DNA of 49,141 bases, from positions 1 through 49,141 of the forward strand of contig JAGVLJ010000014.1 in the NCBI GenBank assembly GCA_020049855.1. Direction: 5' to 3'. A program made the translations under genes and the position numbers. The notes beneath the pieces were generated by a model that saw only the letters and a list, made by a program, of their open reading frames with translations, did not search any database and had not been told where the DNA came from. Position 1 is the stretch's first letter, and each line of letters begins with the position of its first letter. Below, piece by piece: positions 2,635 through 38,225 of the stretch. Source of the DNA: Bacteroidia bacterium. Its GTDB lineage: Bacteria > Bacteroidota > Bacteroidia > UKL13-3.

Positions 2635-5600
2635 TTGTTAATGCTTTACTGGTTTGAGGAGATAGAAACTCGGTGCGGCTAAGTTCGCCTCGGTCTATTT
2701 TATCAATTAATTCACGCTGGGCTTTGTAATCGGCATTGGCAATACCGGCTCTGCTTTGCATCATGCGCCAGGCTTTTCTGCGCTCTACGCAAAACAATAC
2801 CATTTGCCTTGATACCAGATGTGCTTTCTTTTTCCCATCGGCACAATGCTCATAGGTAAATGTACCCCACTCGGGAATAAACGAACGGTGCTCCGGATTT
2901 AAAAACCTGCGATGCACAATATCATCTTGAGTAATCAGTTTGATTAATTCTTCGAGCCTTATTTTACCATTCGTCTCGGTTTCATCAACCACCTTGTGGT
3001 GCATGCGAAAACGAGCCTCGGTAAATGCCCAGTGAGCCGGAAGGTAGGTGTAAGGTGTTTTAGTAATAGGTGCTATGGCCTGATACCAGTCGCCCATGTA
3101 ATTTGGATTCCCCTTTACATTTAACGCCTCAGTAAATGATTCGCCCAATTGCGGGTTAAAAATAAATTCGGGAACTCCACGGCTGTCGCGTGCATACAAT
3201 GCCTGTTGCGGACTTGCATAATCAGGAACTCCATGTTCAGGCTGGCAAGTAGTGTACACTTGAAAAAATGCAGTACCCCGATAACATAATCCATCAAGAA
3301 GCGATTTATACAACGAACCCGAATTGGCTAATGAAACCTGAGCTACAAAAGGAGAACCATGACCACCGATAAATGCTTCAGCGACCCACTTTTTCTCGGT
3401 AAGTTTTCCGCTGGTTGCCGCACCCGCCTGATTCATATCAAACCCACCGGCCATCACCGATGATTCTGAATTTTGTCCGCCTGTATTGGAATATACCTGT
3501 GTATCCAGCATCATCATTTTTACATTTGGTCTATTTTGCAAAACCACTTTTGATACATTCTGAAATCCAATATCTCCCATGCCACCATCTCCGCCTATCA
3601 CCCATACTTTGGGTAATTCCATAATTTCATCATCAGTCATATAAGTATCGGTGAAATGAGTGAACCTAAAATAATCCTGATCGGTGAATGTTTGAGGGGC
3701 AACGCCCATGAGCAAATCGGTTAACCGCTCAGGTATCACCGAACGAACCGCATGGTCGCGAATAAAACTTTCACCCATAAGCCAGCCAATAGTAGCCCCA
3801 TCCTGAAACAAGGAATTCATCCACGGATACGGATGCGGATTATTTGGTGGTGTGCTTCCGAAAACGGTATTACATCCGGTATGAGCAGCCATTGCCATAG
3901 CGGCCATTCCATTGGGTGCAACGCCTTCAATGGCTTGGAGGCTAATGTGATTTATGGCCTCGCTACGCAACACGGTTACTAAAGCCTGAATCAGTTCGGC
4001 ATCTCCTCCTTTAAAATTTTCATTGATGCGTTTATCTGTTTCGTTTGCATCTTCAGCACCAAAACCCATAAGGATATGCAACACGGTTTTTTTGAGCAAC
4101 ACATAAACTTGTTCCTCTTTTTCCCTTAATGCAGCGAGCATTTTTAATCCGTCTTTTTCAAGCAAAGAGGCCTTTTGATGCAAACGGGCTGCTTTTTTAT
4201 GAAAAATTGGGCGCATTAATGTTTCGGTTAAAGTAGCTACCGAGCGTAATACCGATTTTTCTCCACAGCCAGCGCAAGCTCCATCGCCTGAAAGAAGTGC
4301 ATTATATTTTGATTGCAGCATAAGATGAAATTTAAGTGCTGCTGCTTTCGAGTTTTCGGGATTTTCCTCATCAAAAATACCCAGATATTTTTTGGGCGTA
4401 TCATGCAACAAACTAAAAAACTCGTATGCCGATTCCAAATCGGCATGATGTTGTTCGGTTTCTTCTACCATCTTAAGTGCATTGTGATTTCCACACGCTT
4501 CTACACAAGCCGCACACCCTTTACACAAATCGCGTACGGCAATAGAGAATAACCCTCCCGAGCCAGGTTGTTTTTTCTCCATACTACTAAAAATAGCTTT
4601 TGTGTTTAGATAGGCCATGGGAACAATTTTAAGTATTGCGCCCAGTTCACCCAAACTGCGTTCGGTAATATGCTCATCTTTTAAATTTCGATAAGCCTGC
4701 AGCACCAGTTCAAAAAATGCCGGGGCTTCTTTTGTCTCTTTTGAATTTGCTGCTTCGAGCATGGCCGAGCGAATGGGAACATCAATATCTGAAACACGTT
4801 TTAACAAAGCATTGCGAGTAGTTTGGTCTTTTACATAATTACGAATGGCCGTATTAATCACTGTATGTATATCCTGAGCGGTGTTTGGCAAAGCCGTATC
4901 GGGGCACACCACCATGCACTCCATGCATTGGGTGCAATTATCCGGAATCCACACCGGTATTTGCCTGCGCGAAACATATTTACTGCTGGTACTTCCGGTA
5001 GCCGATGCCACTAAACCCACCGATGCTAATGCACTGGCCGGTTGATGATAGCCCAATCCGGCACGAAACTCCTCATCAAAAGTTGACATGCGAAACATGG
5101 GTGCTTTTTCCGTTTCGGGTTCGTGCACGGGTGTAACTCCTGCCATGCAATGAATCATGCCTCCAATAAAACGCGAAGTATCCGGGGCATCAACTGCACC
5201 GTAAGGCACTTCAATTACTTGATCAAAACCGGCCTGCATCACCATCATATTTGAATTAACGACCGCCTCGCCAAAACGACCGAATTTTTTCTCGTACTGC
5301 TTGCGAATAGTTGACTGATACTCTTCAACCGGAATATGAAATGTTTTTAAAAAAGGAGATACGTGAAAAAATGCCCCAAGAAAAGCATTACCCTGCATAC
5401 GTGTTTGCAAATCTTCACGCGGAGTAGCTTTTTTGGCAATTTCAAATCCATTAAGGATATATACCTTTATTTTTTTGTCAATAATCCATTGCCTGTACTT
5501 TTTAGGAATGCGCTCCCATGCTTTTTCGGGAGAATGTTCGTTTGATTCCCACACAAAAGCACCTCCGTCTTCCAGCCCATCTAGTGGATTGGAGTGTAAA

Positions 5601-7285
5601 AACACTTTGGGGTCGCAGCACAATACCGTGTGAACATGCTGCAAATCACAATTTACACGCACCCGCTCTGGGGCTGCTACCATAAAGTAATTGGTAGGTG
5701 CTCCTTTTTTCTCCGACCCATACTTGGGATTTGCACTTATATGAATAACCTCTTTAGGTGTTCCGTCCTCGTCCAAAAGTTTATCACGCTGAGCAATGTA
5801 ATTTGAAAATTCCCCAAGCACTTCGCCTAGATTTTTTCCTGTAGTAATCATTCCCCAACCACCAATAGAGTGAAACCGAACAGCAATAGAATCGTTGGGC
5901 AGACAGGAAGGCCTTTCAACAGACAACACTGCATACGGATGATCAATTCCGATAAAGAAAAACCCTGCTCCCTCGCCTGCTTTTTTTCCGTCTTGTCGGG
6001 CAATGCGTCCCTCGGCAAAATCAAGTGCTCCTATAATCCCCTCGGGTCTGAAATCGCGGGAGCCCAATCCGTAGGATCCTGAAAAAATTTCCGGCCTCTC
6101 GGTAAGCGGGTTAAGAGAAGGCAACCCTTCATAAGTATTGGTAAAAAAGTTTGCTTCGGCTTTACTGAGTGCAACTTTAATATCCCGTGTCAAAGGATTA
6201 TCACCCGATAGTGATTCATCTGTACGTTCCAGTACTATCACGCGTGTTTTTCCTTTCAGTGCTTCTATCACTGCCTTTTCGGGAAACGGACGAATAACAT
6301 TGATATGAATTACCCCAACGGCTACGTTGCGTGTAGCTTTAAGGTAATCCACAACGGCTTCAATATTTTCGGCTGCAGAACCCAGTGCTACAAAAACAGT
6401 TTCGGCCTGCTCACAATTATACGAAGAAATCAATCCGTAGCTTCGCCCGGTTAATTCTCCATAGGTTGTATAGGCTTGTTCAAAAAATGAAAGAATGGCT
6501 TCCGAAAAATTATTTCTGCGGGCAGCCACCCCATTCATGTAATGTTCCTGATTTTGTACCGGACCAAGCAGTAACGGATTTTTTAAATCAATTCCTGCGG
6601 GAATACGCCTGCGTTTAGTACCGAATAAAGTTTTTTGTGCTTCGGTAGGACTTTCAATTTCATCTGACGGGTCGCCTAAAAATTCGCGTATCAATGCCGC
6701 TTCAGGTTTACGAAAAGTGCGTTCTAAGTGCGTAGTTAAAAACCCGTCCTGCACATTCATTCCGGGATTAAGCGAAAGCTCGGTAACCCTTCGTAAAATG
6801 ATGGCCTGATCGGCTGCCTGCTGCGCATCCTTGGCAAAGGTTATCAACCATCCTGTATCGAGAGCCGCATATACATCATCGTGGCCGCAATGCACATTGA
6901 GGGCATGTTTGGTAAGAGCACGAGCCCCCACTTCAATCACCATGGTGCTTAATTTGCCCGGAGCATGGTAATATTGCTCCAATCCGTACACCACCCCCTG
7001 ACCCGAAGTAAAGTTAACGGTGCGTTTTCCTGTTACACTCATCGCAATCGCTCCGCCTTGTGCTGCATGTTCGCCTTCGGTTTCAATAGCCGTAAGCGGA
7101 CGTCCAAAGGCATTGAGCTGACCCTGTGCATAGGCTGTTTGAAAGAGCTCACCCATTTCGGTTGATGGAGTGATGGGGTAAAATACCCCCGCATCGCAAA
7201 TAAGTTGTTCGGTGCTGCACACCAGTGAATTTCCATTAGTGGTAACCCGTTTACCGGGGTACTTTGGTTTATTTTGATTACTCAT
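2627..7285 (-). CDS. nifJ: Pyruvate:ferredoxin (flavodoxin) oxidoreductase, unusually long single chain
   Basis: The enzyme oxidises pyruvate to acetyl-CoA and CO2 and passes electrons to ferredoxin or flavodoxin. All PFOR landmarks are visible in order in this 1552-residue chain: the domain I motif FYPITPSTEMGE (T39), the thiamine-activating Glu in AIETEGEHAA (about E70), the substrate Arg in VGARAL (R122), the gamma-like domain from about residue 430 (FHSIGGWGMITTG), two ferredoxin-type clusters (C784-787-790-794 and C921-924-927-931), the proximal cluster ligands C1004, C1007, C1138 and C1347, and the TPP motif GGDGG (1231-1235) with NTGGQ (1267-1271). Classical PFORs are about 1170-1230 residues. 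The excess lies largely in two insertions, between the ferredoxin motifs and between CAGCG and TGC. ATG 7285 is the first Met before the conserved start. Specificity for another 2-oxoacid cannot be excluded, but pyruvate is the natural first guess. Confidence 0.92.
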   Translation of the reverse strand: MSNQNKPKYPGKRVTTNGNSLVCSTEQLICDAGVFYPITPSTEMGELFQTAYAQGQLNAFGRPLTAIETEGEHAAQGGAIAMSVTGKRTVNFTSGQGVVYGLEQYYHAPGKLSTMVIEVGARALTKHALNVHCGHDDVYAALDTGWLITFAKDAQQAADQAIILRRVTELSLNPGMNVQDGFLTTHLERTFRKPEAALIREFLGDPSDEIESPTEAQKTLFGTKRRRIPAGIDLKNPLLLGPVQNQEHYMNGVAARRNNFSEAILSFFEQAYTTYGELTGRSYGLISSYNCEQAETVFVALGSAAENIEAVVDYLKATRNVAVGVIHINVIRPFPEKAVIEALKGKTRVIVLERTDESLSGDNPLTRDIKVALSKAEANFFTNTYEGLPSLNPLTERPEIFSGSYGLGSRDFRPEGIIGALDFAEGRIARQDGKKAGEGAGFFFIGIDHPYAVLSVERPSCLPNDSIAVRFHSIGGWGMITTGKNLGEVLGEFSNYIAQRDKLLDEDGTPKEVIHISANPKYGSEKKGAPTNYFMVAAPERVRVNCDLQHVHTVLCCDPKVFLHSNPLDGLEDGGAFVWESNEHSPEKAWERIPKKYRQWIIDKKIKVYILNGFEIAKKATPREDLQTRMQGNAFLGAFFHVSPFLKTFHIPVEEYQSTIRKQYEKKFGRFGEAVVNSNMMVMQAGFDQVIEVPYGAVDAPDTSRFIGGMIHCMAGVTPVHEPETEKAPMFRMSTFDEEFRAGLGYHQPASALASVGLVASATGSTSSKYVSRRQIPVWIPDNCTQCMECMVVCPDTALPNTAQDIHTVINTAIRNYVKDQTTRNALLKRVSDIDVPIRSAMLEAANSKETKEAPAFFELVLQAYRNLKDEHITERSLGELGAILKIVPMAYLNTKAIFSSMEKKQPGSGGLFSIAVRDLCKGCAACVEACGNHNALKMVEETEQHHADLESAYEFFSLLHDTPKKYLGIFDEENPENSKAAALKFHLMLQSKYNALLSGDGACAGCGEKSVLRSVATLTETLMRPIFHKKAARLHQKASLLEKDGLKMLAALREKEEQVYVLLKKTVLHILMGFGAEDANETDKRINENFKGGDAELIQALVTVLRSEAINHISLQAIEGVAPNGMAAMAMAAHTGCNTVFGSTPPNNPHPYPWMNSLFQDGATIGWLMGESFIRDHAVRSVIPERLTDLLMGVAPQTFTDQDYFRFTHFTDTYMTDDEIMELPKVWVIGGDGGMGDIGFQNVSKVVLQNRPNVKMMMLDTQVYSNTGGQNSESSVMAGGFDMNQAGAATSGKLTEKKWVAEAFIGGHGSPFVAQVSLANSGSLYKSLLDGLCYRGTAFFQVYTTCQPEHGVPDYASPQQALYARDSRGVPEFIFNPQLGESFTEALNVKGNPNYMGDWYQAIAPITKTPYTYLPAHWAFTEARFRMHHKVVDETETNGKIRLEELIKLITQDDIVHRRFLNPEHRSFIPEWGTFTYEHCADGKKKAHLVSRQMVLFCVERRKAWRMMQSRAGIANADYKAQRELIDKIDRGELSRTEFLSPQTSKALTNE

Positions 7286-10208: not shown

Positions 10209-10286
10209 CCATAAACTGATTTGCATCATACTCCTATTGTTTTTGGCTGCTGTTTATTTGTACCCTCAAATTTTAAATACCATCAT

Positions 10287-11570
10287 ATGAAAAAGTTTTT
10301 ACTTGCTTTATCAATAGGTGTCAGCGCGGCCGTGTCGGCACAAACTGTTGATACCATTTATTGTACTCCGGGATTTGCAGCCCGCACTTATTACCGCCTT
10401 AGTAATAAAGTTCAAACTCCTACCCCTCTTTCCAACTGGCATTTGGCCATTCCTGTAAGAGCCTCTGCTTTCCCCAACAATCCGATTAGCGGAACTTCAA
10501 TGCGCTACAATGGCGGGGCAGGAATGAAATTATACCGTGTTCCAGGAAAAACCGCAGCTGATTACAATGCCGCTTTGGATACCTCCGGAATGAGTAGCTG
10601 GACGAACCTGACAGACCCTGATACTACCTGGGATATCGGAGCCTTTAATGCCAACAAATCATCCGATATTTTCAACTTTGGGTGGGGAACCTACAACCAA
10701 AACTCACATGATGTGGTAGGTGATTCCATGTACCTGCTTAAAATATATAATTCTCCCGGATTTTTTTACAAAAAATTCATCATCGAACGTTTGGCGTATG
10801 ATACATTATGGATGTTCAAATGGTCAAATATTGACGGTACATCGCCTGACAGTGTCACCATCAACAAAAAAGATTTTGCCGGAAAAAACTTTGTTTACCT
10901 GAATGTGCTGGCTAAAAATGTACTCGATAATGAGCCGTTGAGCAGCAATTGGGATTTATTATTTGGCCGTTATGCCACTAACGTAACCTTATTCTCACAA
11001 ACCATTAATGATTATCCGGTGGTAGGAACATTGAGCAACATAGGGGTGCAAGTAGCCGAGGCACGCGGAGTTGATAAAACTACTGCTCACAATTTTACTT
11101 ACCGCGACAGCTATACCAACAATATTTCTGAAATAGGATGGGACTGGAAAGCCGCACTTACATCGGCACTGGTTGATTCATTATCTTACTTTGTTAAGGC
11201 AAAAGACAATAATATTTATAAACTTATTTTTACTTACTATGGTGGGAATGCCAACGGTAAAATTGCCATTGCGGTACAGGGATTAGGCACTTCGATAAAA
11301 AAGGTTAATCCGTATGCAAGCAGTTTTGCCGTATATCCAAATCCGGCAAGTACCACTGCAACACTAATTTTTAGTAACACTGTTGGAGATAAACAACAAA
11401 CTATTCGGGTATATGATATGGCCGGCAAACAATGGATAACATCAACCATTGAAAGTGTAAGTGGATTAAATACTTCTGAAATTGATTTAAGTAATTTACC
11501 AAAAGGCCTCTACATCATTAGCCTTTTTGCAGGCGACTATCCCGCACAACAGCGTTTGCTGGTAAAATAA
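10287..11570 (+). CDS. T9SS-exported HmuY-like surface protein
   Basis: The start is ATG 10287, giving a clear Sec signal peptide (MKKFLLALSIGVSAAVSA, cut before QTVD). The last 80 or so residues form a type A T9SS sorting domain: FAVYPNPASTTATLIF, IRVYDMAGK, IDLSNLPKGLYIISL and a basic end QQRLLVK. The middle resembles the HmuY-like lipoprotein encoded two genes downstream: two 'NW.L.F' lobes (SNWHLAIPV and SSNWDLLFGRYA) and a late strand pair YFVKAKDNNIYKLIF comparable with YIIKDATGTYYKMRF. I therefore infer a secreted ligand-binding paralogue, probably heme or haem-protein related; heme ligands cannot be assigned from sequence. Its stop is immediately followed by the TonB receptor ATG, so the genes form an operon. 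Confidence 0.8.
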   Translation: MKKFLLALSIGVSAAVSAQTVDTIYCTPGFAARTYYRLSNKVQTPTPLSNWHLAIPVRASAFPNNPISGTSMRYNGGAGMKLYRVPGKTAADYNAALDTSGMSSWTNLTDPDTTWDIGAFNANKSSDIFNFGWGTYNQNSHDVVGDSMYLLKIYNSPGFFYKKFIIERLAYDTLWMFKWSNIDGTSPDSVTINKKDFAGKNFVYLNVLAKNVLDNEPLSSNWDLLFGRYATNVTLFSQTINDYPVVGTLSNIGVQVAEARGVDKTTAHNFTYRDSYTNNISEIGWDWKAALTSALVDSLSYFVKAKDNNIYKLIFTYYGGNANGKIAIAVQGLGTSIKKVNPYASSFAVYPNPASTTATLIFSNTVGDKQQTIRVYDMAGKQWITSTIESVSGLNTSEIDLSNLPKGLYIISLFAGDYPAQQRLLVK

Positions 11571-27361: not shown

Positions 27362-27757
27362 TCAGGCTATAAAATGGCGTATGGCCTGAGCAGTGGCAGC
27401 CAGTTCTTCAGGAGCAGGTTTTAATTTTGGTTTGGCAAAATTAATATCGCCCACCTCATTGATAGGAACTAAATGTATATGTGCATGGGGCACCTCAAGC
27501 CCAATAACTGCAACTCCTACTTTTTTGCAAGGAATTGCTTTGCGAACAGCATCGGCCACAATTTTCGAGAACAAATGCAATCCTGCAAATTGCTCATTGT
27601 CTAAATCAAAAATATTATCGGTTTCCTGCTTCGGAATCACCAGCACATGGCCGGTTGTAAGCGGAAACACATCTAAAAAAGCAAGGTAATCTGTGGTTTC
27701 GGCTATTTTATAACAGGGTATTTCGCCCAAAACAATTTTGCTGAATATACTTACCAT
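27362..27757 (-). CDS. HIT family nucleotide-binding protein
   Basis: The 131 residues contain the histidine triad HAHIHLVP and the typical opening IFSKIVLGEIPCYKIAETTDYLAFLD (in outline), then TTGHVLVIPKQETDNIFDL. HIT proteins of this Hint/YcfF-like branch hydrolyse or transfer nucleotides from AMP conjugates. The cellular substrate is unknown. It lies 4 bases after greA on the same strand and is probably co-transcribed with it, a pairing I recall from other Bacteroidota. Confidence 0.93.
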   Translation of the reverse strand: MVSIFSKIVLGEIPCYKIAETTDYLAFLDVFPLTTGHVLVIPKQETDNIFDLDNEQFAGLHLFSKIVADAVRKAIPCKKVGVAVIGLEVPHAHIHLVPINEVGDINFAKPKLKPAPEELAATAQAIRHFIA

Positions 27758-27761
27758 GCTT

Positions 27762-28238
27762 TTACAAACTTATATCAATTATCTCCAGTTGGATTACTCC
27801 TGCTGGCACGGTTATATCCACCACATCGCCTAAGGCTTTTCCCATTAAGGCCGCTCCTATCGGAGATTTGATAGAAATTTTTCCCGCTTTCATATCGGCT
27901 TCCTTTTCTGAAACCATTACATAAACAATCTCTCCTTTTGTTTTCAGGTTTTTCACTTTCACCTTACTTAAAATCATCACCTTGCTGTTGTCGAGTTTAG
28001 TTTCATCTATTACACGCACCTTTGCCAGTTGATTTTCCATTTGTGAAATACGTGTTGCCAGCAGGCTTTGAGCCTCTTTAGCGGCATGATACTCGGCATT
28101 CTCCGATAAATCGCCTTTATCACGTGCTTCCGCAATCTGCCGGGAGATATAAGGCATCTCCACACTTCGGAGTTGCTGCAATTCCTTTTTAAAATTGTCG
28201 AAACCTTCTTTAGTAAGGTAAATAACTTCGTCTGCCAT
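27762..28238 (-). CDS. greA: Transcription elongation factor GreA
   Basis: The 158-residue protein has the GreA design: an N-terminal antiparallel coiled coil with the acidic tip EARDKGDLSENAEY (D43 and E46 match the residues that chelate Mg in the RNA polymerase active site), and a C-terminal FKBP-like domain with SPIGAALMGKALGDVVDITVPAG. It enters the secondary channel of RNA polymerase and promotes cleavage of backtracked RNA. It is the first gene of a greA-HIT pair. The 5' side carries a long hairpin that is most simply the terminator of the upstream porV-type gene. Confidence 0.95.
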   Translation of the reverse strand: MADEVIYLTKEGFDNFKKELQQLRSVEMPYISRQIAEARDKGDLSENAEYHAAKEAQSLLATRISQMENQLAKVRVIDETKLDNSKVMILSKVKVKNLKTKGEIVYVMVSEKEADMKAGKISIKSPIGAALMGKALGDVVDITVPAGVIQLEIIDISL

Positions 28239-28260
28239 ATTGTTGTTTCCTGATTAAGCT

Positions 28261-28302
28261 AAAAAGAAGAAACGCCTTGCGTGCAAGACGTTTCTTCTTT
28301 TT
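28261..28302 (-). terminator. Strong bidirectional intrinsic-terminator-like hairpin
   Basis: A 14-bp outer stem (AAAAAGAAGAAACG with CGTTTCTTCTTTTT), one mismatch, and a 5-bp inner stem (CTTGC/GCAAG) with a 2-base loop. The T-run on the minus strand lies downstream of the PorV-like gene (stop at 28322), so it should end the three-gene minus-strand operon. Because greA starts only 23 bases further on, it may also sit in the greA leader. Confidence 0.75.
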
Positions 28303-28321
28303 ACGGGTACAAATATATGTA

Positions 28322-29422
28322 TTAATTCGATTTCTTGCCTGTAAGCAATAAGCGGGCACCAAAAGTATGTACTCCGTCAAAGCTATTGGTAGCACGGTAA
28401 GAATAATCAATACCGAATTTAGTACCTGTTTTGTTAATAGGTATCAATACCCCAAAGCCTGCATTAAACCCAGTAAACACCGTTTTGCGCAGTTCCTTAT
28501 TGAACAAATCCTTTTCAAAAACAAATCCGCTTCGAAACAACAACATTTCTTTCATGCCATATTCAACCCCTAAAATGTACTGGTTATTTTGAAAAGTGTG
28601 CGAGGCAAAATTAAATGAAGCCGTAAGACGATGATTATACTTGGTTGAATCACGATCGAGGCGAATATCATAACTTGCTCCGACATTAATCAACGAAGGA
28701 AGATTAAATGTAGCTGCCCGTTGTTCGGTGTTTGATGAAAGTCCCGTAGATACATTGGTGGTATATACCGAAAGACCGCTACCCCCAAATTTCATATCGG
28801 GGCCAATGTTTCGGATAGCAACCCCAAAATGAACATCCCGTCCTTTAATTTTGGCATTATTAGGGTTGAGTGAGGCTTTATATTGAACACCGGCCTCCAT
28901 GCTCACCCCCTGAGCTTTTACATCAGTAATGGCTTCTGAAATAGCCCGCATCATAATTCCACCATAAATATTATCAGAGAATTTTTTGGCATAACCCAAA
29001 CCTACATTTAAAAACTGTGGCGAAAAAGTTCCCAACGTACCATCCGGGGCTTCGGTGGTAGTGATATCAATATTGCCAAAATTCATTGAAAAAACTGAAA
29101 TTCCGATTACCGACCCTTCGCCAACTCGCTGGGCAAATCCGAAATTATTAATATTAATATCGGTTGTTTTTAAATAATTGGTTCTACTAAAAACCAACTC
29201 GGTATTGTCAGTAAAGGCTAACCCGGCTACATTCAGATGGAAAGCTTCCAGTCCTTTCACTTCAGCACTGTTTGCTCCTCCCAAACCCGAACTGCGTGCC
29301 CACGGGTTAATGAGTAACTCGGTTGCACCAGCCTGCCCTGCCCGGTCAGGATTACCTGCCATAACAACGGTTGAAATACCCAAGGCAAAAATTGCTGTAA
29401 AAATTATATTTCTAATTCTCAT
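28322..29422 (-). CDS. PorV/PorQ family outer membrane barrel protein
   Basis: The 366-residue protein has a signal peptide ending STVVMA and then the signature of the PorV/PorQ family: AGQAGATELLINPWARSSGLGGA, followed by NVAGLAF, and barrel strands such as NFGFAQRVGEGSVIGISVFSM (in outline), GLGYAKKFSDNIYGGIMMRA and FGIDYSYRATNSFDGVHTFGARL. PorV (LptO) takes T9SS cargo from the secretion pore to the attachment complex; PorQ and relatives have similar roles. It lies 25 bases after a large T9SS-type cargo gene and a TonB receptor on the same strand, which suggests a dedicated escort for that cargo. It is probably not the housekeeping PorV, which is usually found elsewhere. Confidence 0.85.
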   Translation of the reverse strand: MRIRNIIFTAIFALGISTVVMAGNPDRAGQAGATELLINPWARSSGLGGANSAEVKGLEAFHLNVAGLAFTDNTELVFSRTNYLKTTDININNFGFAQRVGEGSVIGISVFSMNFGNIDITTTEAPDGTLGTFSPQFLNVGLGYAKKFSDNIYGGIMMRAISEAITDVKAQGVSMEAGVQYKASLNPNNAKIKGRDVHFGVAIRNIGPDMKFGGSGLSVYTTNVSTGLSSNTEQRAATFNLPSLINVGASYDIRLDRDSTKYNHRLTASFNFASHTFQNNQYILGVEYGMKEMLLFRSGFVFEKDLFNKELRKTVFTGFNAGFGVLIPINKTGTKFGIDYSYRATNSFDGVHTFGARLLLTGKKSN

Positions 29423-29447
29423 TTCTATGTTATTTTCAGGTTAGGAA

Positions 29448-32400
29448 TTAAAACGAATCCAAATCATACTGCCTCATCACTCCAAACCATTTGAGCACCT
29501 TTTCACCAAGTACACCTGCATCAATATGAATGATGTAAACCCCGCTGGCAATTGGCACGTTGGCTTGATTCTTAATATCCCAATCAGCACTGGTAGTAGT
29601 GGGATCATCTTTTTTAATACGTCTTACCAAAACACCATTCAGCGTATAAATACTAATTGTACATTTTGGCGGAAGGTTGGTAAACTTCACTTTGGTATCC
29701 AGTTGATTTGTTTCATAGGCTGAATACCCGTAGTAGGGGTTCGGAACTACATTAATCATATCAATAGCTTTTTTACCTACCGCAGCACTGGCTACGGCTG
29801 CTATATCGGCAGTTGAGAATGAATAAGCCGGCATTCCTCCGTTAATCGGGTTGTTATCGGGATTATAGATGGCGTATGGCTTTTGCATTCTTACTTTTAT
29901 GCGTACATCAGTGGGTACAATCCCTTCTTCAGGAGTAAGTGTTTTAAAACCACCTTGCGTGTACGACATCATTACCCACATTGCTTGTGAAAACACGAAA
30001 CGCTTGTTAAGATTATTGGTTTGGTTGGTTGTAAACAAGTTCTGATAACTCGCCCCTTCGTCATAAATAGGGCCTGTATAAGTACCGAATGTTTTGCTAC
30101 CCATAATATAAATGTAGTGCTTGCCGCCAAATACAGGTGTAGAAGATACCCCATTGTAAAGGGTAGATGTAGGATTCCACAACATATCGCGGGTATTCTC
30201 ACCCTCATAATAGGAATCTTCGCCAAACATGATATTTAAGCGCTCCCCAGTTTCAACATTGATGGCATAGCCCGGAAACCATCCACGACCCTGCTCACCT
30301 CCAGGTAATGGCTTACCCATTTTATCTACCGATGCATGTTTACGCATACTCAGTTTTGCTGCATTGCCTTCAGTAAGGTTCGGGTCTTCCCCTAATTCAA
30401 GCACTACACAACGCGTCCATTTACTGGTATCTGAGGTTAATACCAAATCAATACTTGCCAAATCGGTCAAGCGGCTGTCGGTTTGTAACGAGCCCTCCCA
30501 TGCAGGCCCGTAAGTGTTAAGGTCATTGGCTCGGGTTTTTTTAGAACACAAAGTATAAGGAGCCATTCGCCCATCCAACACTTTTTCAAAACGCTCTTTA
30601 GGGTCAAGTGAACTTCCATTGGTATTATAATCCCAGTAATAATCCTTGTCAGCCGGTGGAGATGGGCTTTGCCAATCGTTACGACCAACGCTTCCCGATC
30701 GAATCCAATTGAGCCAGTAAGCCGTGGAGCGTACCTGAATATTATCTACATCTTTTAATCCTGTTAGCCACGGTTTACTCAAATCTGCAAACTCGATGGA
30801 GGAAGATATATAACCATTTGATTGATCGAATAAGTCCGTTGTATTCCCTGTTTTGATCGTTTGATTAATAGCAACCGACATTCCCCAGTCCTCTGCTTTA
30901 CCCGTGGTGGGATTTTTGAATTTAACAATTTGCTCATTTTTCTTGGCAAGCGTCATTTCAGAGAAAACAGTATCTCGGTTAATACCATTTTTACGAACCA
31001 AGTACCAGATTGATTTAGGAGCCGCCAATGAATCGGCCTTTGCGGTAGAATCCAGAATGTATAATTCAAAATCTCCCGCAGGCACTTTGGTCGGGTCAAT
31101 TACTTTAATATTTACGGGCCCGTTGCCCCCAAGGTAAGTTGGTTGGCTTAGTTTCCCATTTTTCACAATTGCATCAATAGAAGCTTGTGTTAGCTCAAGC
31201 TCCTGACCACCGTTTCCTGTCCCGGTAATACGTTTAATTTGAGGCCCGCCTCCGTACCCCGAATTAACTTGCAGCCCCCCGCTACGTGGCTGCGGTGGAT
31301 GTGGTACAGCTGCATAAGTTTTTACGTTTTTACGGCCGGGGTAATATTGCACCCGATAATTATTATCGCTTGCCCGTGCATATGATATAATCATATAGTA
31401 GTAGGTTTTGAAGTTTACCAGAGTCTGATCTCCTCTGGCAAATAGATCCTTTTGTATGCGGAAAGAGTGTGAAATTCCTTTTTCGCTACCCACTACTTTT
31501 AATATTTTGGTATAATCTTTAATGGCAGGATCATATTCCTCATTCACTAAGTCCTTCACATTATTTTGCAAATCCGTTTGCACCACCAAACGCGCACGAT
31601 CTACATCATCCAACTCTCCGGTAGAAACCGACCCGTCTTTTAATTGATAGATAAGGTATCCTTCAAAATTGTATAGCACATTGGGTTGTCCCGTTCTTTT
31701 TAGCGTATCCTGATAGAGTTCTACTTTATTGTTGACTGTATTTTCAAGATTGATGATTAACTCACGGTTTATCTCGGCAATATTCAAATCGGGAGCCGTT
31801 GGTCCATCAAGTATTTTAAAATTATTGTCGAATAGAACTTGAGCAGTCTCATCATACTTCACCAAAAGATCGAGTGAACCTGTTGCCCCACCCTGTGAAA
31901 CACGTGCCCAAACTACTCCAACCGTTACTTTATTTACTGCCCCTGATTTTAATTTGAAAGGCCCGGCTGATTGTAAGAACCTTCTGTCGGCAGGTGGATT
32001 ACCGGCTGTAAGTTCCGTCCACTCTCCCAACGAGGAGTAAAGGAATGGGTCGGTATTTTTTGGAAACATCCAATTGCTTTTCACATTGGTTGCACCTAAA
32101 CCGCCCCCAATTCCATTTCCACCATAACTCATGGTCACTCCATTCTTCCATATTCCACGCAAGTAATTGTAATAGTGTTGTGGCGCAGTTGGATTTCCTC
32201 GGTCAGCAGAAAAATCATTGTTGTAATAAACAAATTTAGAAAGACCTATACGTTCGCCAGGCTCATCTGTGGTTCCATTGCGGTCATTATCTACTCCATC
32301 ATTTGGGTCAGCAAAAGGACCTTCAAAAAAATCAACCCCAACGCTTGGAGGATTTACACCATAACCTAAAACGCCTTCATCATCATCATCCCCATTATAG

Positions 32401-33350
32401 GTGTACCCCAGACTATGCACTACATCACAACCTACGTAGTCGTCAGAATAATTTCCAAGATCGGCATCGACCCACTCTCCAAAATAACAACTGTCAACAT
32501 CTTCATTGCTTCTATTGGTAATGGTAGTGGTATAAAAAGTCATGTTATTAATTTCATCGTTGGTAGCAAAACCAAAAGCTTGTGTTTGCAACTCCAACCC
32601 AATAGGTATACCCTGAGTTTCGGTGTGAATTGCCCCTTTATCATTATATACCCACCACAAAGTTTGGTCACCCAATACATCCGGATAATCTCCCAGTTGG
32701 GGCTCATACCTCAAACTTCCTCCAACGTTCACAAATGGAGCCAAGTATTCAGTTTCTCCAAATGCAGGATTCCCGTGAGCAGGCCACTCATCAATTACTG
32801 AAGGTGGGCTAGACTTATCGGGATTGGCAATAAAATTTTCAATATCTACCCTATTTATTTTAAAAATCTTGTCGTAAAATTTACACCGATCAGGGGTAAC
32901 AGATGAATTGTTTGTATTTAAAGGCCCCGGGAAAAAATCATTTCCATTCTGTCGATAGGTTTGGGCGGCCAACTTTAGATTTCCTTGCGATAATCCCCCA
33001 ATCCATAAGGCTCCAGCAAAAAGGGAGTTTTTTCTGTTATTATTGGCAGGGTCGGTGATTTTTGGAATTTCGTACTTGGCGTTGTTCAAATCCCACCACA
33101 TATCTCCTCCGTTTAAAATACGGGTTCTAACATTATTAATATCTAAATCTACCTGAGCGGTGGCCGGCTCACAACCTGCGGCCACTTTATAGAACTCATT
33201 TTTGCCGGTACGTCCTGCCGGATTTTCCTGTGGTGCTCCTACTATTTCTCTGGCGTAGCCATTAGCTCCAAAAAGCATGGCTATTGTTATTCCTGAAATT
33301 ACTTTGTATTTCATGTTGAACTTACTTTTCTTTAATGATTTCATTCTCAT
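29448..33350 (-). CDS. Very large T9SS cargo-like surface protein, function unknown
   Basis: The 1300-residue protein has a signal peptide (IAMLFGANGYA) after an unusually long N-region, a widely seen but uncharacterised Bacteroidota opening (ARILNGGDMWWDL-like RILNGGDMWWDLNNAKYE, SLFAGALWIGG, AAQTYRQNGNDFFPGPL), a calcium-site-like Asp-rich stretch DPNDGVDNDRNGTTDEPGER, and a C-terminal T9SS-type sorting domain: INVVPNPYYG, VKFTNLPPKCTISIYTLNG, WDIKNQANVPIASGVYIIHI and GEKVLKWFGVMR. I recognise no enzyme domain. ATG 33350 follows AAGGA by 7 bases; ATG 33314 would give a more normal signal peptide. It sits between a TonB receptor and a PorV-family gene, with about 20-25 bases between them. 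Confidence 0.8.
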   Translation of the reverse strand: MRMKSLKKSKFNMKYKVISGITIAMLFGANGYAREIVGAPQENPAGRTGKNEFYKVAAGCEPATAQVDLDINNVRTRILNGGDMWWDLNNAKYEIPKITDPANNNRKNSLFAGALWIGGLSQGNLKLAAQTYRQNGNDFFPGPLNTNNSSVTPDRCKFYDKIFKINRVDIENFIANPDKSSPPSVIDEWPAHGNPAFGETEYLAPFVNVGGSLRYEPQLGDYPDVLGDQTLWWVYNDKGAIHTETQGIPIGLELQTQAFGFATNDEINNMTFYTTTITNRSNEDVDSCYFGEWVDADLGNYSDDYVGCDVVHSLGYTYNGDDDDEGVLGYGVNPPSVGVDFFEGPFADPNDGVDNDRNGTTDEPGERIGLSKFVYYNNDFSADRGNPTAPQHYYNYLRGIWKNGVTMSYGGNGIGGGLGATNVKSNWMFPKNTDPFLYSSLGEWTELTAGNPPADRRFLQSAGPFKLKSGAVNKVTVGVVWARVSQGGATGSLDLLVKYDETAQVLFDNNFKILDGPTAPDLNIAEINRELIINLENTVNNKVELYQDTLKRTGQPNVLYNFEGYLIYQLKDGSVSTGELDDVDRARLVVQTDLQNNVKDLVNEEYDPAIKDYTKILKVVGSEKGISHSFRIQKDLFARGDQTLVNFKTYYYMIISYARASDNNYRVQYYPGRKNVKTYAAVPHPPQPRSGGLQVNSGYGGGPQIKRITGTGNGGQELELTQASIDAIVKNGKLSQPTYLGGNGPVNIKVIDPTKVPAGDFELYILDSTAKADSLAAPKSIWYLVRKNGINRDTVFSEMTLAKKNEQIVKFKNPTTGKAEDWGMSVAINQTIKTGNTTDLFDQSNGYISSSIEFADLSKPWLTGLKDVDNIQVRSTAYWLNWIRSGSVGRNDWQSPSPPADKDYYWDYNTNGSSLDPKERFEKVLDGRMAPYTLCSKKTRANDLNTYGPAWEGSLQTDSRLTDLASIDLVLTSDTSKWTRCVVLELGEDPNLTEGNAAKLSMRKHASVDKMGKPLPGGEQGRGWFPGYAINVETGERLNIMFGEDSYYEGENTRDMLWNPTSTLYNGVSSTPVFGGKHYIYIMGSKTFGTYTGPIYDEGASYQNLFTTNQTNNLNKRFVFSQAMWVMMSYTQGGFKTLTPEEGIVPTDVRIKVRMQKPYAIYNPDNNPINGGMPAYSFSTADIAAVASAAVGKKAIDMINVVPNPYYGYSAYETNQLDTKVKFTNLPPKCTISIYTLNGVLVRRIKKDDPTTTSADWDIKNQANVPIASGVYIIHIDAGVLGEKVLKWFGVMRQYDLDSF

Positions 33351-33370
33351 TTGTCGTCCTTACCTGTTAG

Positions 33371-36300
33371 TTAAAAGTTGTAACGAACCCCAAGTCTGGT
33401 CCATCTTGGCAACGCATAATTGCCCGGATTGGCCACTTTAATATTATACAAGTCAATAAATGATTGGGCATTGGTTGCCTGATTAATTGCAACTTGACCT
33501 GCAGGTGAATTTAAGTACCCGTCATTATCTGCCGAACCGCTGTAACGATAAACGCCCAAAACATTTTTAGCATTAAACAAATTGGTGATTTGCATAAATA
33601 CCACAATACTGGCTTGTTTAGGTGCTCCGTTTTTATAAGTGCCTGCTTTGAAGTAGAATGTTTTGTCAATATTCAGGTCGGTATAAAATTGCCATGGTAA
33701 ACGTGATCCGTTAGGATTACCCTTTATCGGGCTTCGAACAACTACCCCCGGTTGAGCGTCAGGGGTGGCCTGAGAGTTTACGGTATATGGACGCCCAGAT
33801 TGGGAATTAAAAATTAACGCAATCCCTGCATTTTGGAAAATAGGCTTGTTAAACACTATTGGACCATTATATTGATTTCTTTTAGCATCCTTGTCATAAC
33901 CTTTGTAATGGAAATCAACTGTACCTTTAATAATGTGGCGAACATCATAATCTAATGGAAATAAGGTACGTAAATTAGGCAGCCCAACTGCAAGCAAAGC
34001 TCCGCTTGAACCGGAGTTTGAACCCGTACCATCGGCAAACTGCAATGCGTAGTTGGCCATCAGCGATACGTTACCTAAATCTCTTAGTTCATATTCAAAA
34101 CGTAAACTTTTTACCGTAGAAAAATCAAGATTTCCAAAAGTAGTATAGGTAATAGGATAAGCCTGATTGTAGCGGTACTGCGTTATGAGGTTTCTCATTT
34201 CGCTGTAAGATGCGGCAATAGTTAACGCCTGATTGGCGTTCCCGTCAGCATCACTGCCAAGTGCTTGCTTAAAGCCTAGCTCGTAGTCGGTACGTCTGGT
34301 TGGTTTTAAATCAGGATTACCAATGGTACTGTTAGCTCTGTTTTGCATGTAGTAATAATCATCAACCTGTGCAATGGTACCTTCGGTAGGGCGCTGGGTT
34401 AAGATATCGTATGTTGCAAAAAACTGAGCCTTTTCATTGATAGGGAAGGAGAACCAAACACGTGGTAACACATTAATCTGAGGTTGGTAATCTTTAAACG
34501 TACCGGTAGTAGTGATTACCTGATTATTGGGGTCAACCAAATAAGGTTGAATACGGCCAGAAGTAGTAGCATTGGCTAATACGGAAGGGTCATTGATACG
34601 GCTTCCTTCGGCATTGTACCAGTTAATTCCGTCACGATATCCCAATATTTTGGTTGGATTTTTCACATCATCTACATAAACAGCATAATTAGAGCCAATG
34701 GTTGATGGATGGGTAACTTGATTGTTTCCTATTTCACTCACCTCGCCTGCTGTTTTTACAGGATATAATGTAAACGGATCTTTAAGTACCGGCATGTTGT
34801 TGTCAAAACGTTCCAAACGAACACCGATGCGGAAAATTAAATCGCGGAAAATAAACTGATCCTGTAACCAGGCGGCCTGATAAATGGGCATATAAGCCGG
34901 AATCAAACGCTCCCCGTTTAAGAAACGGTCGTAGCCCGGTTTACCTTTTACTTTATTGCCATATGCATCGTATCCGTAATAATTCACATAGGAATTTCCA
35001 TTATTTAATAGTTCATCAGCACTAAACATATTAATATTGAAATCGTTTGGCGAATAAGAGTTCACATCAATAAAACTTTGCTGATTAATCAGATTTCCAT
35101 ACACGTCACGCTCACCTCTTGCTATTAACTCACTTCGGAAAGTCTTGTCAAAATAGGATTGATCGGCTCCATTGAATGAGCGGTCGTAGCGAACTGTATC
35201 CTGAAATACTCCATTGGCATCATATACCAAAAAGCCGCGATAATATCCGTTTGCGTCAGCCTGATTGGCCAAACCTGCATTAAATTGATTATTCATTAAC
35301 TGACGGGCAAGACCCCATAACTGAATAGCCGATACCCCGTATGAACGCTGCACACGCTGCTCATACTGCAATCCAAACTGGAGGGAATGCTGACGGCCTT
35401 TATTGCGTTTACTGTTTATGCTGGCTTCGCCCATTGCATATAAAGTAAACTGCTCTACGGAGGCTTTGCTGTAATTGGTTAGCGGTGTTCCCGGATTTGA
35501 CCACATTAATGAGTATATTGCCTGTGGATTATCTCCATTAACCAATCCCAGATTTTGACGAACTGTATTGATACTCGAAATTTTCCCACCCTGGCTGGCT
35601 ATAAGTTCATAGAGGTTTTGGGTATAATTAGCCCGAATGGCATTAATATCTGAACGCTCAAATGTGTAGAGTGTATCAACATTGGCAACATGCTCCTGAA
35701 AATAGCTTAATAGTACGGTATCGCCATTCTGGTCGATAAACTTTTTTGGTGTTCCGTTTACACCAGGATTATAGGTATTGTAAAAGGCCGATTGGTAGGT
35801 CTTGAATTTACCTACATATCCATACTTAAAGAAATCATCTTTAAGGTCGGGATCCTGCTGCACAATTTGGCGATAAGTATAGTCGAAACGAACGGTGTAA
35901 AACGCATTTGAGATTGGGTAGAACTTATCTTTCTCCTTATTATCGTTAGTAAAAGTTTGAGTAAACCTTAGGTAAGTTCTGTAAGTTCCGTCAATGGTTT
36001 GCGGATTTTCTTTGAAGTTAAACAGTGAACTTGAATACGAATACCCAAGGGCATTTACGTAATTGGCCTGACCTCCAAAAACAATGTTAATATTTTTGGA
36101 TGGCTGGTAATTTAAACTTCCTGTAATGCTAAAGGATTTGCGTGGAATATTTAATTTGGCATCTACCTTCTCCAAATCACTTTTGGTAACAAATTCAGCG
36201 TTTGGAACAAAACCAGTACCGCCTGGAGCTATACGCAGCGGATTTTTTTCTAAATTGCTTAATACATTATCTTTTGCTTTCCACACCCCAATTGCCGATG

Positions 36301-37171
36301 GGCTTGGATCTTTTGTGTAACCAAGATTTGCACCCAACGAGAACCCAAGCAAAGAGCGTTCTTTGTCTCGGTCACCTTTGTCCTTTTTTAGAATAGGGCC
36401 CTGTGCATACATTTCCAACTGATTAAAATTGTACGCATCAAAAGGGGTAGAGGTAATTAATTCAGCACCGCCATGCAAATATTTCGATGGCCCCTTGGTA
36501 CGGATGGAAATAGCTCCTCCCGTATAATCGCCATACTGAGCAGGAACACCGCTGGTAATTACCTGAATTTGATCAATCATATTGGTTGGTACGCCTGCAC
36601 TGCCAATAACGCGAACCCCATCAATATAATAAGCGGTACCATCGGCACGAGCCCCTCTAAAAGTAGGTGTTCCGCCATTTACTGAAATTACCCCGGCAGC
36701 TAAATTAGCCAATTGATTAATGTTACGATTAGGCATGCGCATTACCTGTGCTGCCGTTAACCCAATACCTTGTTTTCCACCCGGATCTATTAACGGAACC
36801 GCATTTTTGGAGTCCTTTTTTATTACCAGTCTAAGTGTTCCTTTCGGAGCAATTTCAACATTTATAAACCTGATTTGGTCGGGTGAAAGCACAATGCCGC
36901 GGGTAGTATCACCTTCATAACCCGGGAATTGCACCTCAATAGAGTAGGTGCCCGGATCAAGCGGTCGTAATACATAATTCCCCTCATCATCGGTGTAGGT
37001 GCTGCGTTTAGCTACTCCTTCCAGTTTGGCAACCACCAGCGCATAATCCACGGGCTTGCCCTTTTCGTCCCGCACTTTCCCACGGATTTCACCAAAACCG
37101 GTTTGAGCCGATACATGATGCCAAAAACCCATGAAAACTACTAGCAAAAGGTAAAACTTTTTATTCATCAT
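33371..37171 (-). CDS. Large TonB-dependent receptor with carboxypeptidase-like N-terminal domain
   Basis: The 1266-residue protein has a signal peptide ending HHVSAQ, a carboxypeptidase regulatory-like domain (about 28-110: GKVRDEKGKPVDYALVVAKLEG, DDEGNYVLRPLDPGTYSIEV), a plug (RGARADGTAYYIDGVRV, IDQIQVITSGVPAQYGDYTGGAISIRT) and a long barrel with ANSTIGNPDLKPTRRTDYELGFKQ and a terminal strand RWTRLGVRYNF. No canonical TonB box is obvious. The length is well above typical siderophore receptors and closer to SusC-like proteins, but no SusD-like gene follows. Instead a giant T9SS cargo and a PorV-family gene follow on the same strand, so the receptor may take up, or sit with, whatever that cargo binds. 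Confidence 0.9.
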   Translation of the reverse strand: MMNKKFYLLLVVFMGFWHHVSAQTGFGEIRGKVRDEKGKPVDYALVVAKLEGVAKRSTYTDDEGNYVLRPLDPGTYSIEVQFPGYEGDTTRGIVLSPDQIRFINVEIAPKGTLRLVIKKDSKNAVPLIDPGGKQGIGLTAAQVMRMPNRNINQLANLAAGVISVNGGTPTFRGARADGTAYYIDGVRVIGSAGVPTNMIDQIQVITSGVPAQYGDYTGGAISIRTKGPSKYLHGGAELITSTPFDAYNFNQLEMYAQGPILKKDKGDRDKERSLLGFSLGANLGYTKDPSPSAIGVWKAKDNVLSNLEKNPLRIAPGGTGFVPNAEFVTKSDLEKVDAKLNIPRKSFSITGSLNYQPSKNINIVFGGQANYVNALGYSYSSSLFNFKENPQTIDGTYRTYLRFTQTFTNDNKEKDKFYPISNAFYTVRFDYTYRQIVQQDPDLKDDFFKYGYVGKFKTYQSAFYNTYNPGVNGTPKKFIDQNGDTVLLSYFQEHVANVDTLYTFERSDINAIRANYTQNLYELIASQGGKISSINTVRQNLGLVNGDNPQAIYSLMWSNPGTPLTNYSKASVEQFTLYAMGEASINSKRNKGRQHSLQFGLQYEQRVQRSYGVSAIQLWGLARQLMNNQFNAGLANQADANGYYRGFLVYDANGVFQDTVRYDRSFNGADQSYFDKTFRSELIARGERDVYGNLINQQSFIDVNSYSPNDFNINMFSADELLNNGNSYVNYYGYDAYGNKVKGKPGYDRFLNGERLIPAYMPIYQAAWLQDQFIFRDLIFRIGVRLERFDNNMPVLKDPFTLYPVKTAGEVSEIGNNQVTHPSTIGSNYAVYVDDVKNPTKILGYRDGINWYNAEGSRINDPSVLANATTSGRIQPYLVDPNNQVITTTGTFKDYQPQINVLPRVWFSFPINEKAQFFATYDILTQRPTEGTIAQVDDYYYMQNRANSTIGNPDLKPTRRTDYELGFKQALGSDADGNANQALTIAASYSEMRNLITQYRYNQAYPITYTTFGNLDFSTVKSLRFEYELRDLGNVSLMANYALQFADGTGSNSGSSGALLAVGLPNLRTLFPLDYDVRHIIKGTVDFHYKGYDKDAKRNQYNGPIVFNKPIFQNAGIALIFNSQSGRPYTVNSQATPDAQPGVVVRSPIKGNPNGSRLPWQFYTDLNIDKTFYFKAGTYKNGAPKQASIVVFMQITNLFNAKNVLGVYRYSGSADNDGYLNSPAGQVAINQATNAQSFIDLYNIKVANPGNYALPRWTRLGVRYNF

Positions 37172-37250: not shown

Positions 37251-38225
37251 TTAAGTCTTACTTTGACGCTTCCAGCCATTTTCAGTAAACTTGTCCGCTA
37301 AACAACTAATTTTATTTGATAAAAAAAAGGAAATTTTTTTATACGACTCATGTGTCCAGCCTCCAATATGAGGAGCAAGCACAACCTTATTGTTTCCAAC
37401 TAGTTCTGTAAAAGTTTTTTTTTCTTCTTCGCTCAGTTGTTTCAGGTTTTCATTTTCCAATACATCTAAGGCACATGCCTTTACTTTTTCTTCGGCTAAT
37501 GCTTTTACTAAATAGTGTTGGTTCACTACTTTGCCCCTTGACAAGTTAAGCAGTACCACTCTCTTTTTGAATTGGTTGATATAGTCAGCATCAATCAGAT
37601 GAAAGGTTTCATCGGTTAGTGGTATATGTAAACTTACAATATCGGCCTGCTCAAAAATATCGGCCATAGTTGCTTCGCTGGCATATATATCTCCATAATT
37701 TTTCAGGTATTTATCATAAGCTAAAACCGTTACCTCAAAACCGGATAGCTTTTTTGCAACGGCCTTCCCGGTGTGGCCGTAACCAATTAGTGCCACGGTT
37801 TTACCTTTTAATTCTACTCCCCTGTTGGCCTCCCTGTTCCACTGCATTTTTCGCACTTCCGTATCGGCCTTTACTAAATTGAGCATTACGGCCAACAGCA
37901 TACCTACGGTATGTTCGCCCACTGCATCAGCATTAGCTTCGGGTGCATTTACTAATTCCACCCCCAGTTGCAGTGCATATACTTCATCTATATTATCCAT
38001 TCCTGAACCGGCTCTTGCTATGAGCAACAGACCGGGTAGCGCATCTAATAGGCACCTATCTACATAAATCTTACTACGTACCACCAGGCCATTATACTGC
38101 TTTAATTCTTTTCTGATTTCGTCAGGAGTAATGTTGGGGAGATATCGGTAGCTAATATTCTTTTTATCCAATTGTTGCATGAACAACGGATGCATATCAT
38201 CAACAATCAACAGGTTTAGTTTCAT
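37251..38225 (-). CDS. D-isomer-specific 2-hydroxyacid dehydrogenase (phosphoglycerate dehydrogenase-like)
   Basis: The 324-residue NAD-dependent dehydrogenase has the nucleotide-binding motif ALIGYGHTGKAVAKKL and the catalytic triad R230 (LNLSRGKVV), E259 (ALDVLENE) and H286 (LAPHIGGW). The N-terminal half has RAGSGMDNIDEVYALQLGVELVNAPEANADAV, which is close to SerA-type enzymes (in outline). It lacks the C-terminal ACT domain of long SerA, so either a short SerA of serine synthesis or another 2-oxoacid reductase is possible. It begins one base after the mgtE stop, so the two are co-transcribed. Confidence 0.85.
   Translation of the reverse strand: MKLNLLIVDDMHPLFMQQLDKKNISYRYLPNITPDEIRKELKQYNGLVVRSKIYVDRCLLDALPGLLLIARAGSGMDNIDEVYALQLGVELVNAPEANADAVGEHTVGMLLAVMLNLVKADTEVRKMQWNREANRGVELKGKTVALIGYGHTGKAVAKKLSGFEVTVLAYDKYLKNYGDIYASEATMADIFEQADIVSLHIPLTDETFHLIDADYINQFKKRVVLLNLSRGKVVNQHYLVKALAEEKVKACALDVLENENLKQLSEEEKKTFTELVGNNKVVLAPHIGGWTHESYKKISFFLSNKISCLADKFTENGWKRQSKT

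Follow-up and report, generated by a model that had tools for sequence, protein, structure and literature searches.

Do a TonB-dependent receptor, a very large secreted protein and a PorV-like barrel encoded side by side form one cell-surface device, and if so, of what kind? The question is raised by a stretch of 49,141 nucleotides from a Bacteroidia bacterium (contig JAGVLJ010000014.1; hereafter the window), in which three minus-strand genes, all ATG open reading frames (ORFs), follow one another. The first encodes a TonB-dependent-receptor-type outer-membrane protein of 1266 aa with CarboxypepD_reg and Plug domains (33371..37171), the second a 1300-aa cargo of the type IX secretion system (T9SS) with a weakly recognizable T9SS C-terminal domain (29448..33350), and the third a 366-aa PorV-family barrel, recognized by Pfam and NCBIfam models (28322..29422), which we propose as the dedicated carrier of the cargo. 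The first-pass annotation of the window had described three genes of these sizes separated by about 20–25 bases, and the gaps are indeed 20 bases (receptor to cargo) and 25 bases (cargo to carrier). We consider it somewhat probable that this trio builds a surface receptor complex, in which the cargo would be retained on its own PorV-family carrier and act together with the TonB-type receptor.

The pattern of conservation indicates that the three genes are a unit. Searching 58 genomes (own included) with the cargo protein, we found relatives in 56. A single match of almost full length is present in 40 of the 58, at 43–55% identity outside the window's own genome; the others have partial, split or paralogous ones. 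A scan of GTDB contigs for cargo relatives contributed the best 80 of 193. The order TonB-dependent receptor, cargo, PorV-like gene, on the same strand and directly adjacent, is seen in 102 of 109 cargo loci (L008–L116; 88 distinct and 21 near-copies). Six of the other seven reach a contig end first, and in the last (L062) the cargo frame is broken. At L062, which lies in a metagenome-assembled genome, the receptor and carrier ORFs have normal length and the PorV-like gene is still downstream; the broken frame could reflect decay or an assembly error. The same order is present in all four further regions of the window's class and in 19 of 20 regions of other classes, hand-picked from strong matches to the cargo body (one per genome), the twentieth ending inside the cargo at a contig end. 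The close spacing is likewise kept across classes. The first-pass annotation had allowed that the genes might rarely be adjacent in other genomes; across Bacteroidota the triad instead recurs in the same order in several classes. Around the window its surroundings are steady as well, with greA downstream in 60 of the 63 contig loci (among the 80) that have 4 kb of room, and a 2-hydroxyacid dehydrogenase upstream in 38 of 64 with room. The trio there therefore reads as a vertical locus, and looks like an old, inherited one rather than a mobile cassette.

To measure the reach of the system we compared a 40-row cargo profile with 296 genomes sampled evenly across the phylum. The profile matches 143 of them, up to 67 only in the C-terminal domain (PorU and similar proteins), and at least 76 in the cargo body beyond that domain. 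SprA is encoded in all 76 genomes with a listed cargo body versus 153 of the 220 others (Fisher p 1.5e-10, uncorrected for kinship). Within the window's class, the body is among the matches listed in 8 of 70 SprA-positive genomes, the window's own included. In 16 genomes of other classes the PorV family has between 3 and 24 members, and we chose two of these multi-copy genomes for their many PorV matches (G086 with 18, G070 with 24) and examined a subset of their regions. Full trios were present in 10 of the 14 regions examined in G086 and in all 8 examined in G070, giving at least 18 paralogous trios; the G086 regions L244, L245, L248 and L249 are not full trios. In many of the paralogous trios the cargo is more distant, and cargo lengths run from about 620 to 1290 residues. 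Across the 18, protein distances are strongly correlated between receptor and cargo (0.90), receptor and PorV-like protein (0.85), cargo and PorV-like protein (0.81), and also between the cargo C-terminal domain and the PorV-like protein (0.71; each p ~0.0002), as expected if the unit duplicated and diverged as a whole.

The putative carrier belongs to the PorV/PorQ superfamily (NCBIfam NF033709, 138.1 bits, cut-off 90; Pfam PorV, 38.4 bits, cut-off 27). Compared with the PDB, its profile matches one protein strongly, the PorV of F. johnsoniae (6h3i_F, E 8.4e-17). It is none of the named members: it scores 69.5 bits against PorV (NF033710, cut-off 250), 72 bits against PorQ (NF033711, cut-off 220) and 20.3 bits against PorV2 (NF052325, cut-off 325), and other genes of the same genome are the equivalogs (PorV L001/L171, 493.7 bits; PorQ L003/L168, 349.5 bits; PorV2 L005/L169, 473.5 bits). 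In a PorV-family tree of 95 selected rows, the window-type trio carriers from all classes sampled form one 100/100 clade of 41 rows. The housekeeping PorVs fall in a separate 100/99 clade, which excludes the window carrier and includes the G086 row L249, labelled unlinked, that genome's PorV locus. The remaining trio carriers join the 41 rows in an 89/90 clade, along with the unlinked pair L002 and L244. By this phylogeny, the trio carriers are a separate clade of the PorV family. The window carrier contains no cysteine, and 21 of 40 carrier rows have none after residue 25; a CxC motif is thus not conserved, and with no conserved cysteine pair we rejected the identity of a gliding-track carrier.

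The first-pass annotation had assigned the cargo a T9SS-type C-terminal domain (CTD), and the predicted structure bears this out, with a Type-A-like beta-sandwich at residues ~1189–1292 (29475..29786, minus strand). The match to TIGR04183 is weak (18.8 bits for the protein and 23.2 bits in a six-frame search, cut-off 23), ranking 102nd among the 105 TIGR04183 matches of the genome by the six-frame search, and the PorZ model gives 21.8 bits (cut-off 260). In a 551-residue model (pLDDT 85), the domain is closest to PorZ (Z 11.7, 90 residues, 2.4 Å), followed by PorU (Z 8.2) and unrelated sandwiches (~8); the predicted domain is a divergent Type A fold whose nearest relative is PorZ. A lysine near the C terminus of Type A CTDs is described as almost invariant and functionally important in the available part of one report (PMC10994853). 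By eye, it corresponds to Lys1287 of the cargo, which is lysine in 36 of 40 aligned cargo rows and arginine in the other 4, and the domain thus combines the beta-sandwich with the near-C-terminal lysine of Type A. Behind it, the alignment shows a tail with the consensus R-P-x-D-L-D-x-F (29448..29474, minus strand, stop codon included) that is kept in the orthologous group.

We built a trio-type CTD model from trio cargos and a second model from 30 generic CTDs that the window genome encodes; both were scored on 191 CTD-bearing ORFs from a non-random sample of loci (184 with enough downstream sequence, 7 dropped). Among 68 held-out CTDs with non-orthologous bodies, 24 of the trio type have a PorV-family gene next to them and 2 do not; of the generic class, 11 have an adjacent PorV-family gene and 31 do not. 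When 19 CTDs upstream of a housekeeping PorV are set aside, the counts become 16 trio-type with and 2 without, 0 generic with and 31 without, and the two multi-copy genomes alone give 16 and 1, 0 and 11, respectively. As judged by these models, CTD class tracks linkage to a PorV-family gene. The two trio-type CTDs of the 68 that lack a PorV neighbour both belong to orphan cargos. One is a 714-aa protein of the window genome (L172:8422-10563, minus strand), which also encodes a PorV-family protein with no adjoining cargo (L002/L167; L167:8536-9555, plus strand). Region L244 of G086 contains the same two orphan kinds, with a receptor gene adjoining the PorV gene. The orphan carriers L002 and L244 are sisters at 100/100, and perhaps orphan cargo and orphan carrier are an unlinked carrier–cargo pair.

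What the cargo might do at the surface has to be read from its predicted fold. By eye, its N terminus is of the Sec type and carries no lipobox. The protein has zero Pfam matches at E≤1, and a PDB sequence search at the same threshold returned a sole match, to the PorZ CTD (E 0.63), and none for the body. The model of residues 36–1185 has a pLDDT of 87, and structural searches with it barely cover residues ~675–1185. Residues ~60–513 (31812..33173, minus strand) hold the motifs NGGDMWWDL, SLFAGALWIGG and AAQTYRQNG, which the first-pass annotation had singled out as marks of a conserved N-terminal part; an alignment of 40 homologues shows strong conservation there. Its best structural match is 9ju0 (Z 18.6, 248 residues, 3.2 Å), and all 50 listed matches have Z of at least 14. 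It aligns with dextran dextrinase, glucoamylase, cellodextrin and cellobiose phosphorylases, and GH116 glucosidases (Z 14 to 18.6 over ~230–275 residues at 3–4 Å) at a sequence identity of ~4–11%. We therefore predict that this region folds as the supersandwich of GH15/GH94/GH116/GH65 enzymes; the matched part is, we take it, their N-terminal supersandwich. Most of the aligned length falls on the sandwich, and long helices are few in the model, so that on these searches a full enzyme of this type, with an (alpha/alpha)6 catalytic barrel, seems rather unlikely, and a sugar-binding role is our guess from the modelled fold. Within the same region, Cys60 (33171-33173, minus strand) and Cys156 (32883-32885, minus strand) are invariant in all 40 rows and may form a disulfide, and residues 348–364 (32259-32309, minus strand) are a stretch rich in D, N and G, presumably akin to calcium-binding segments of the thrombospondin-3/dockerin type.

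The receptor carries a CarboxypepD_reg-like N-terminal domain at residues 29–105 (36857..37087, minus strand; PF13620, 62 bits, above the Pfam cut-off), and the TonB plug at residues 138–219 (36515..36760, minus strand; PF07715, 29.2 bits, cut-off 23.9) marks it as a protein of the TonB-dependent-receptor type. Its PDB matches are confined to the plug region, the best being the Colicin I receptor (E 8.4e-10). A receptor profile matched 29 of 31 genomes at 1e-20; many of the rows are plug-region pieces, and the profile was hence left unused for counting. Among the NCBIfam matches of the window receptor there is no SusC model, and the lack of a SusD partner beside it, pointed out in the first-pass annotation, extends to the whole genome, where PF07980 (SusD) has 0 matches at E≤0.001. 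The earlier proposal of a self-contained unit is supported by the order, spacing and co-divergence of the genes, the separate carrier clade and this absence of PF07980. That the unit is distinct from SusCD is true of its membership, which includes neither a SusC-model receptor nor SusD; it may still work as SusCD does.

We therefore suggest the following mechanism. The cargo would enter the periplasm by Sec and cross the outer membrane through the SprA translocon, a step suggested by its T9SS CTD and by SprA in 76 of 76 listed genomes. Its Type-A-like CTD would then be collected by the neighbouring PorV-family barrel in place of the housekeeping PorV; we infer such cognate export from linkage, CTD class and co-divergence. 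The CTD would escape removal by PorU and stay docked on the barrel, as PorZ does on PorQ, making the carrier escort and permanent anchor in one. This retention, the weakest part of the scheme, is argued by analogy from the PorZ-like predicted fold. Finally, the anchored cargo, lying over or beside the receptor, would present a ligand that the receptor imports with TonB energy; complex formation and uptake are suggested by the constant gene order and the receptor domains. Given the supersandwich predicted in the cargo, the ligand would most likely be a glycan or glycoconjugate, and around the window the constancy of the locus speaks for a common, housekeeping one. The device would resemble SusCD, with a T9SS protein anchored to a beta-barrel where SusCD has its surface lipoprotein.

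Several observations weigh against parts of this scheme. In the window's class, 62 of 70 SprA-positive genomes have no listed cargo body, which makes the cargo dispensable for life with a T9SS. The TonB-box-like stretch before the plug is degenerate in the window receptor, questioning the use of TonB, and a supersandwich fold by itself proves no sugar binding. The constant greA neighbourhood is easier to reconcile with a housekeeping function than with a varying diet of glycans. The cargo may even so lose its CTD to cleavage, or be handed to the PorU complex. The 19 PorU CTDs, identified by place and not by a model, do not fall together with the trio CTDs: 8 score as trio-type and 11 as generic. 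We count PorU CTDs as retained on PorV, and a single sequence class for all retained CTDs is thus unsupported; for this reason the idea of retention rests mainly on the PorZ-like fold. Lastly, the numbers of PorV-family and SusD genes are inversely related over 117 genomes (rho −0.50; top counts recorded as at least 13–16), with rho of −0.16 within the window's class (p 0.36) and −0.25 in other classes (p 0.03), and the relation is mainly a difference between classes. A broader and tentative generalization, which we hold possible, is that the trios are a third, so far unrecognized class of T9SS display, with never-cleaved Type-A-like CTDs on private PorV-family carriers, each wired to a TonB-dependent receptor of its own. 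In classes where SusD genes are few or missing while PorV-family genes number up to two dozen, such trios would be the chief equivalent of SusCD, as nutrient receptors with a surface part that the T9SS delivers.

Of the other explanations, the one that survives best, and which we still find unlikely, takes the carrier–cargo pair as real and the complex as structural or biogenetic (envelope organization, surface-layer or adhesin display), with the receptor a stable barrel partner and no importer. The fixed locus beside greA, the large conserved cargo and the degenerate TonB-box-like segment would suit it, as would the FadL-type barrels of the phylum's beta-barrel assembly machinery (BAM), which hold surface proteins in non-transport complexes according to the accessible sections of two reports (PMC12611786, PMC12578637). 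It accounts less well for a receptor that keeps both plug and N-terminal extension, for an E-V-V-V-like segment before the plug in 17 of 29 aligned receptor rows (loose pattern; not in the window row), and for the multi-copy trios of other classes, which resemble substrate diversification. More doubtful is that the cargo is an ordinary Type A substrate of the housekeeping PorV/PorU, its PorV-like neighbour having some other role. The Type A fold and key lysine of the CTD agree with this, and the genome has 105 TIGR04183 matches and one PorV by the equivalog model, so that PorV presumably serves many cargos. Yet of the 103 loci uncut by a contig end, 102 have the PorV-like gene linked to the cargo, the exception being the locus with the broken cargo frame; CTD class follows this linkage; and the CTD stands near the bottom of the TIGR04183 matches. 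Oar, a TonB-dependent protein of Myxococcus, offers a model in which the receptor itself exports the cargo or helps to mature it. The receptor gene does lie directly upstream of the cargo wherever there is room to see it, but the T9SS CTD and the presence of SprA in all 76 listed genomes mean that a full export route already exists, making this very improbable. Least probable of all is a gliding or adhesion protein on a moving track, as SprB on SprF: the dedicated carrier just downstream recalls Type B pairs (PMC12618676, in part), but no TIGR04131 Type B CTD or PorP/SprF model is among the matches at E≤1, and the carriers have no conserved CxC, while SprF, in the portion of PMC12635249 available, is tied to the gliding track by its C-tail cysteines and needs them for binding.

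The window also informs on how the trio is transcribed. A strong terminator had been noted 3′ of the trio, and we find there a terminator-like hairpin of 20 pairs with a U-rich 3′ arm (28260..28303, minus strand), ahead of greA. A 67-nt stretch containing it folds at −27.5 kcal/mol versus −8.85 ± 2.58 for shuffles (z −7.2; 0 of 200 shuffles as good). A simple promoter/terminator consensus scan, whose counts did not exceed those of shuffles, does not list this hairpin. Upstream, a same-strand gene (37251-38225) sits 79 bases from the receptor gene, so that the transcript may begin at the trio or farther upstream. Downstream, greA (27762-28238, minus strand) is followed by a HIT-family gene (27362-27757, minus strand). 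Elsewhere in the window, a 449-aa ORF (10221-11570, plus strand) has a good C-terminal Type A T9SS domain (52 bits) and is apparently an ordinary cargo, and a 1552-aa fused pyruvate:ferredoxin-oxidoreductase-like protein (2627-7285, minus strand) matches TIGR02176 at 366.6 bits, below the equivalog cut-off of 911.35. The genome (2.9 Mb, 84 contigs, 99.4% complete) encodes SprA together with clear PorV, PorQ and PorV2, and at L171 a CTD-ended ORF just before porV is taken as PorU by place.

We found no account of a unit of TonB-dependent receptor, cargo and PorV-like protein in the open-access literature, a search that left most subscription papers and all preprints outside. The trio may represent an undescribed way to build a cell-surface receptor complex in many Bacteroidota. 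If our suggestion is true, there would be a third T9SS route, served by widespread dedicated PorV-family carriers that go with a recognizable CTD class and with receptors; many unnamed PorV/PorQ-family proteins would gain a function, the T9SS would be tied to nutrient uptake, and the protection of some CTDs from PorU would become a directly testable question.

Among known systems, PorZ–PorQ and PorU–PorV share with the proposed device a surface protein that sits on a barrel of the PorV family, and the predicted fold of the window CTD is nearest PorZ. The accessible text of two papers states that PorQ anchors PorZ (PMC5562754), and that the PorZ CTD is retained, with the suggestion that cognate PorV-like barrels may protect such CTDs from cleavage (PMC10202324); the trio fits this suggestion as far as it is set out there. 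It differs in its separate carrier clade, in the receptor gene within the unit, in a body with no sequence relative in the PDB, and in that nothing suggests it takes part in processing CTDs. Type A substrates share the general carrier PorV, whereas Type B substrates have dedicated carriers (PMC12635249, PMC12618676), often encoded directly downstream and doubling as anchor (PMC12618676, PMC9143113), as these sources put it in the parts at hand. Type B substrates with their PorP/SprF carriers thus resemble the trio in the dedicated downstream carrier and the proposed use of carrier as anchor, but the trio has a Type-A-like CTD, a PorV-family carrier with no CxC tail and a TonB-dependent receptor in the operon. 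In BamG–BamH of the Bacteroidota BAM, a FadL-type barrel holds a large surface protein, as proposed for the trio; compared by description only, and from partial texts (PMC12611786, PMC12578637), BamH is a lipoprotein, the gene set is different and no TonB-dependent receptor is mentioned. A link of the trio to BAM was rejected on the same descriptions, which name BamG and BamH and, in those parts, no PorV-family carrier with such a receptor. The GH15/GH94/GH116/GH65 enzymes share a predicted fold with cargo residues ~60–513 (Z up to 18.6), which shows no function; it is mostly the N-terminal part of the enzymes that matches, at the low identity given above. SusCD resembles the trio in pairing a TonB-type receptor that has an N-terminal extension with a large surface partner encoded alongside; in the trio there is no SusD homologue, the partner is a T9SS cargo and no lipoprotein, and the third gene encodes a barrel. 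The trio thus stands outside SusCD, Type B pairs, and PorV, PorQ and PorV2 proper, and it may work as a cross between PorZ–PorQ and SusCD.

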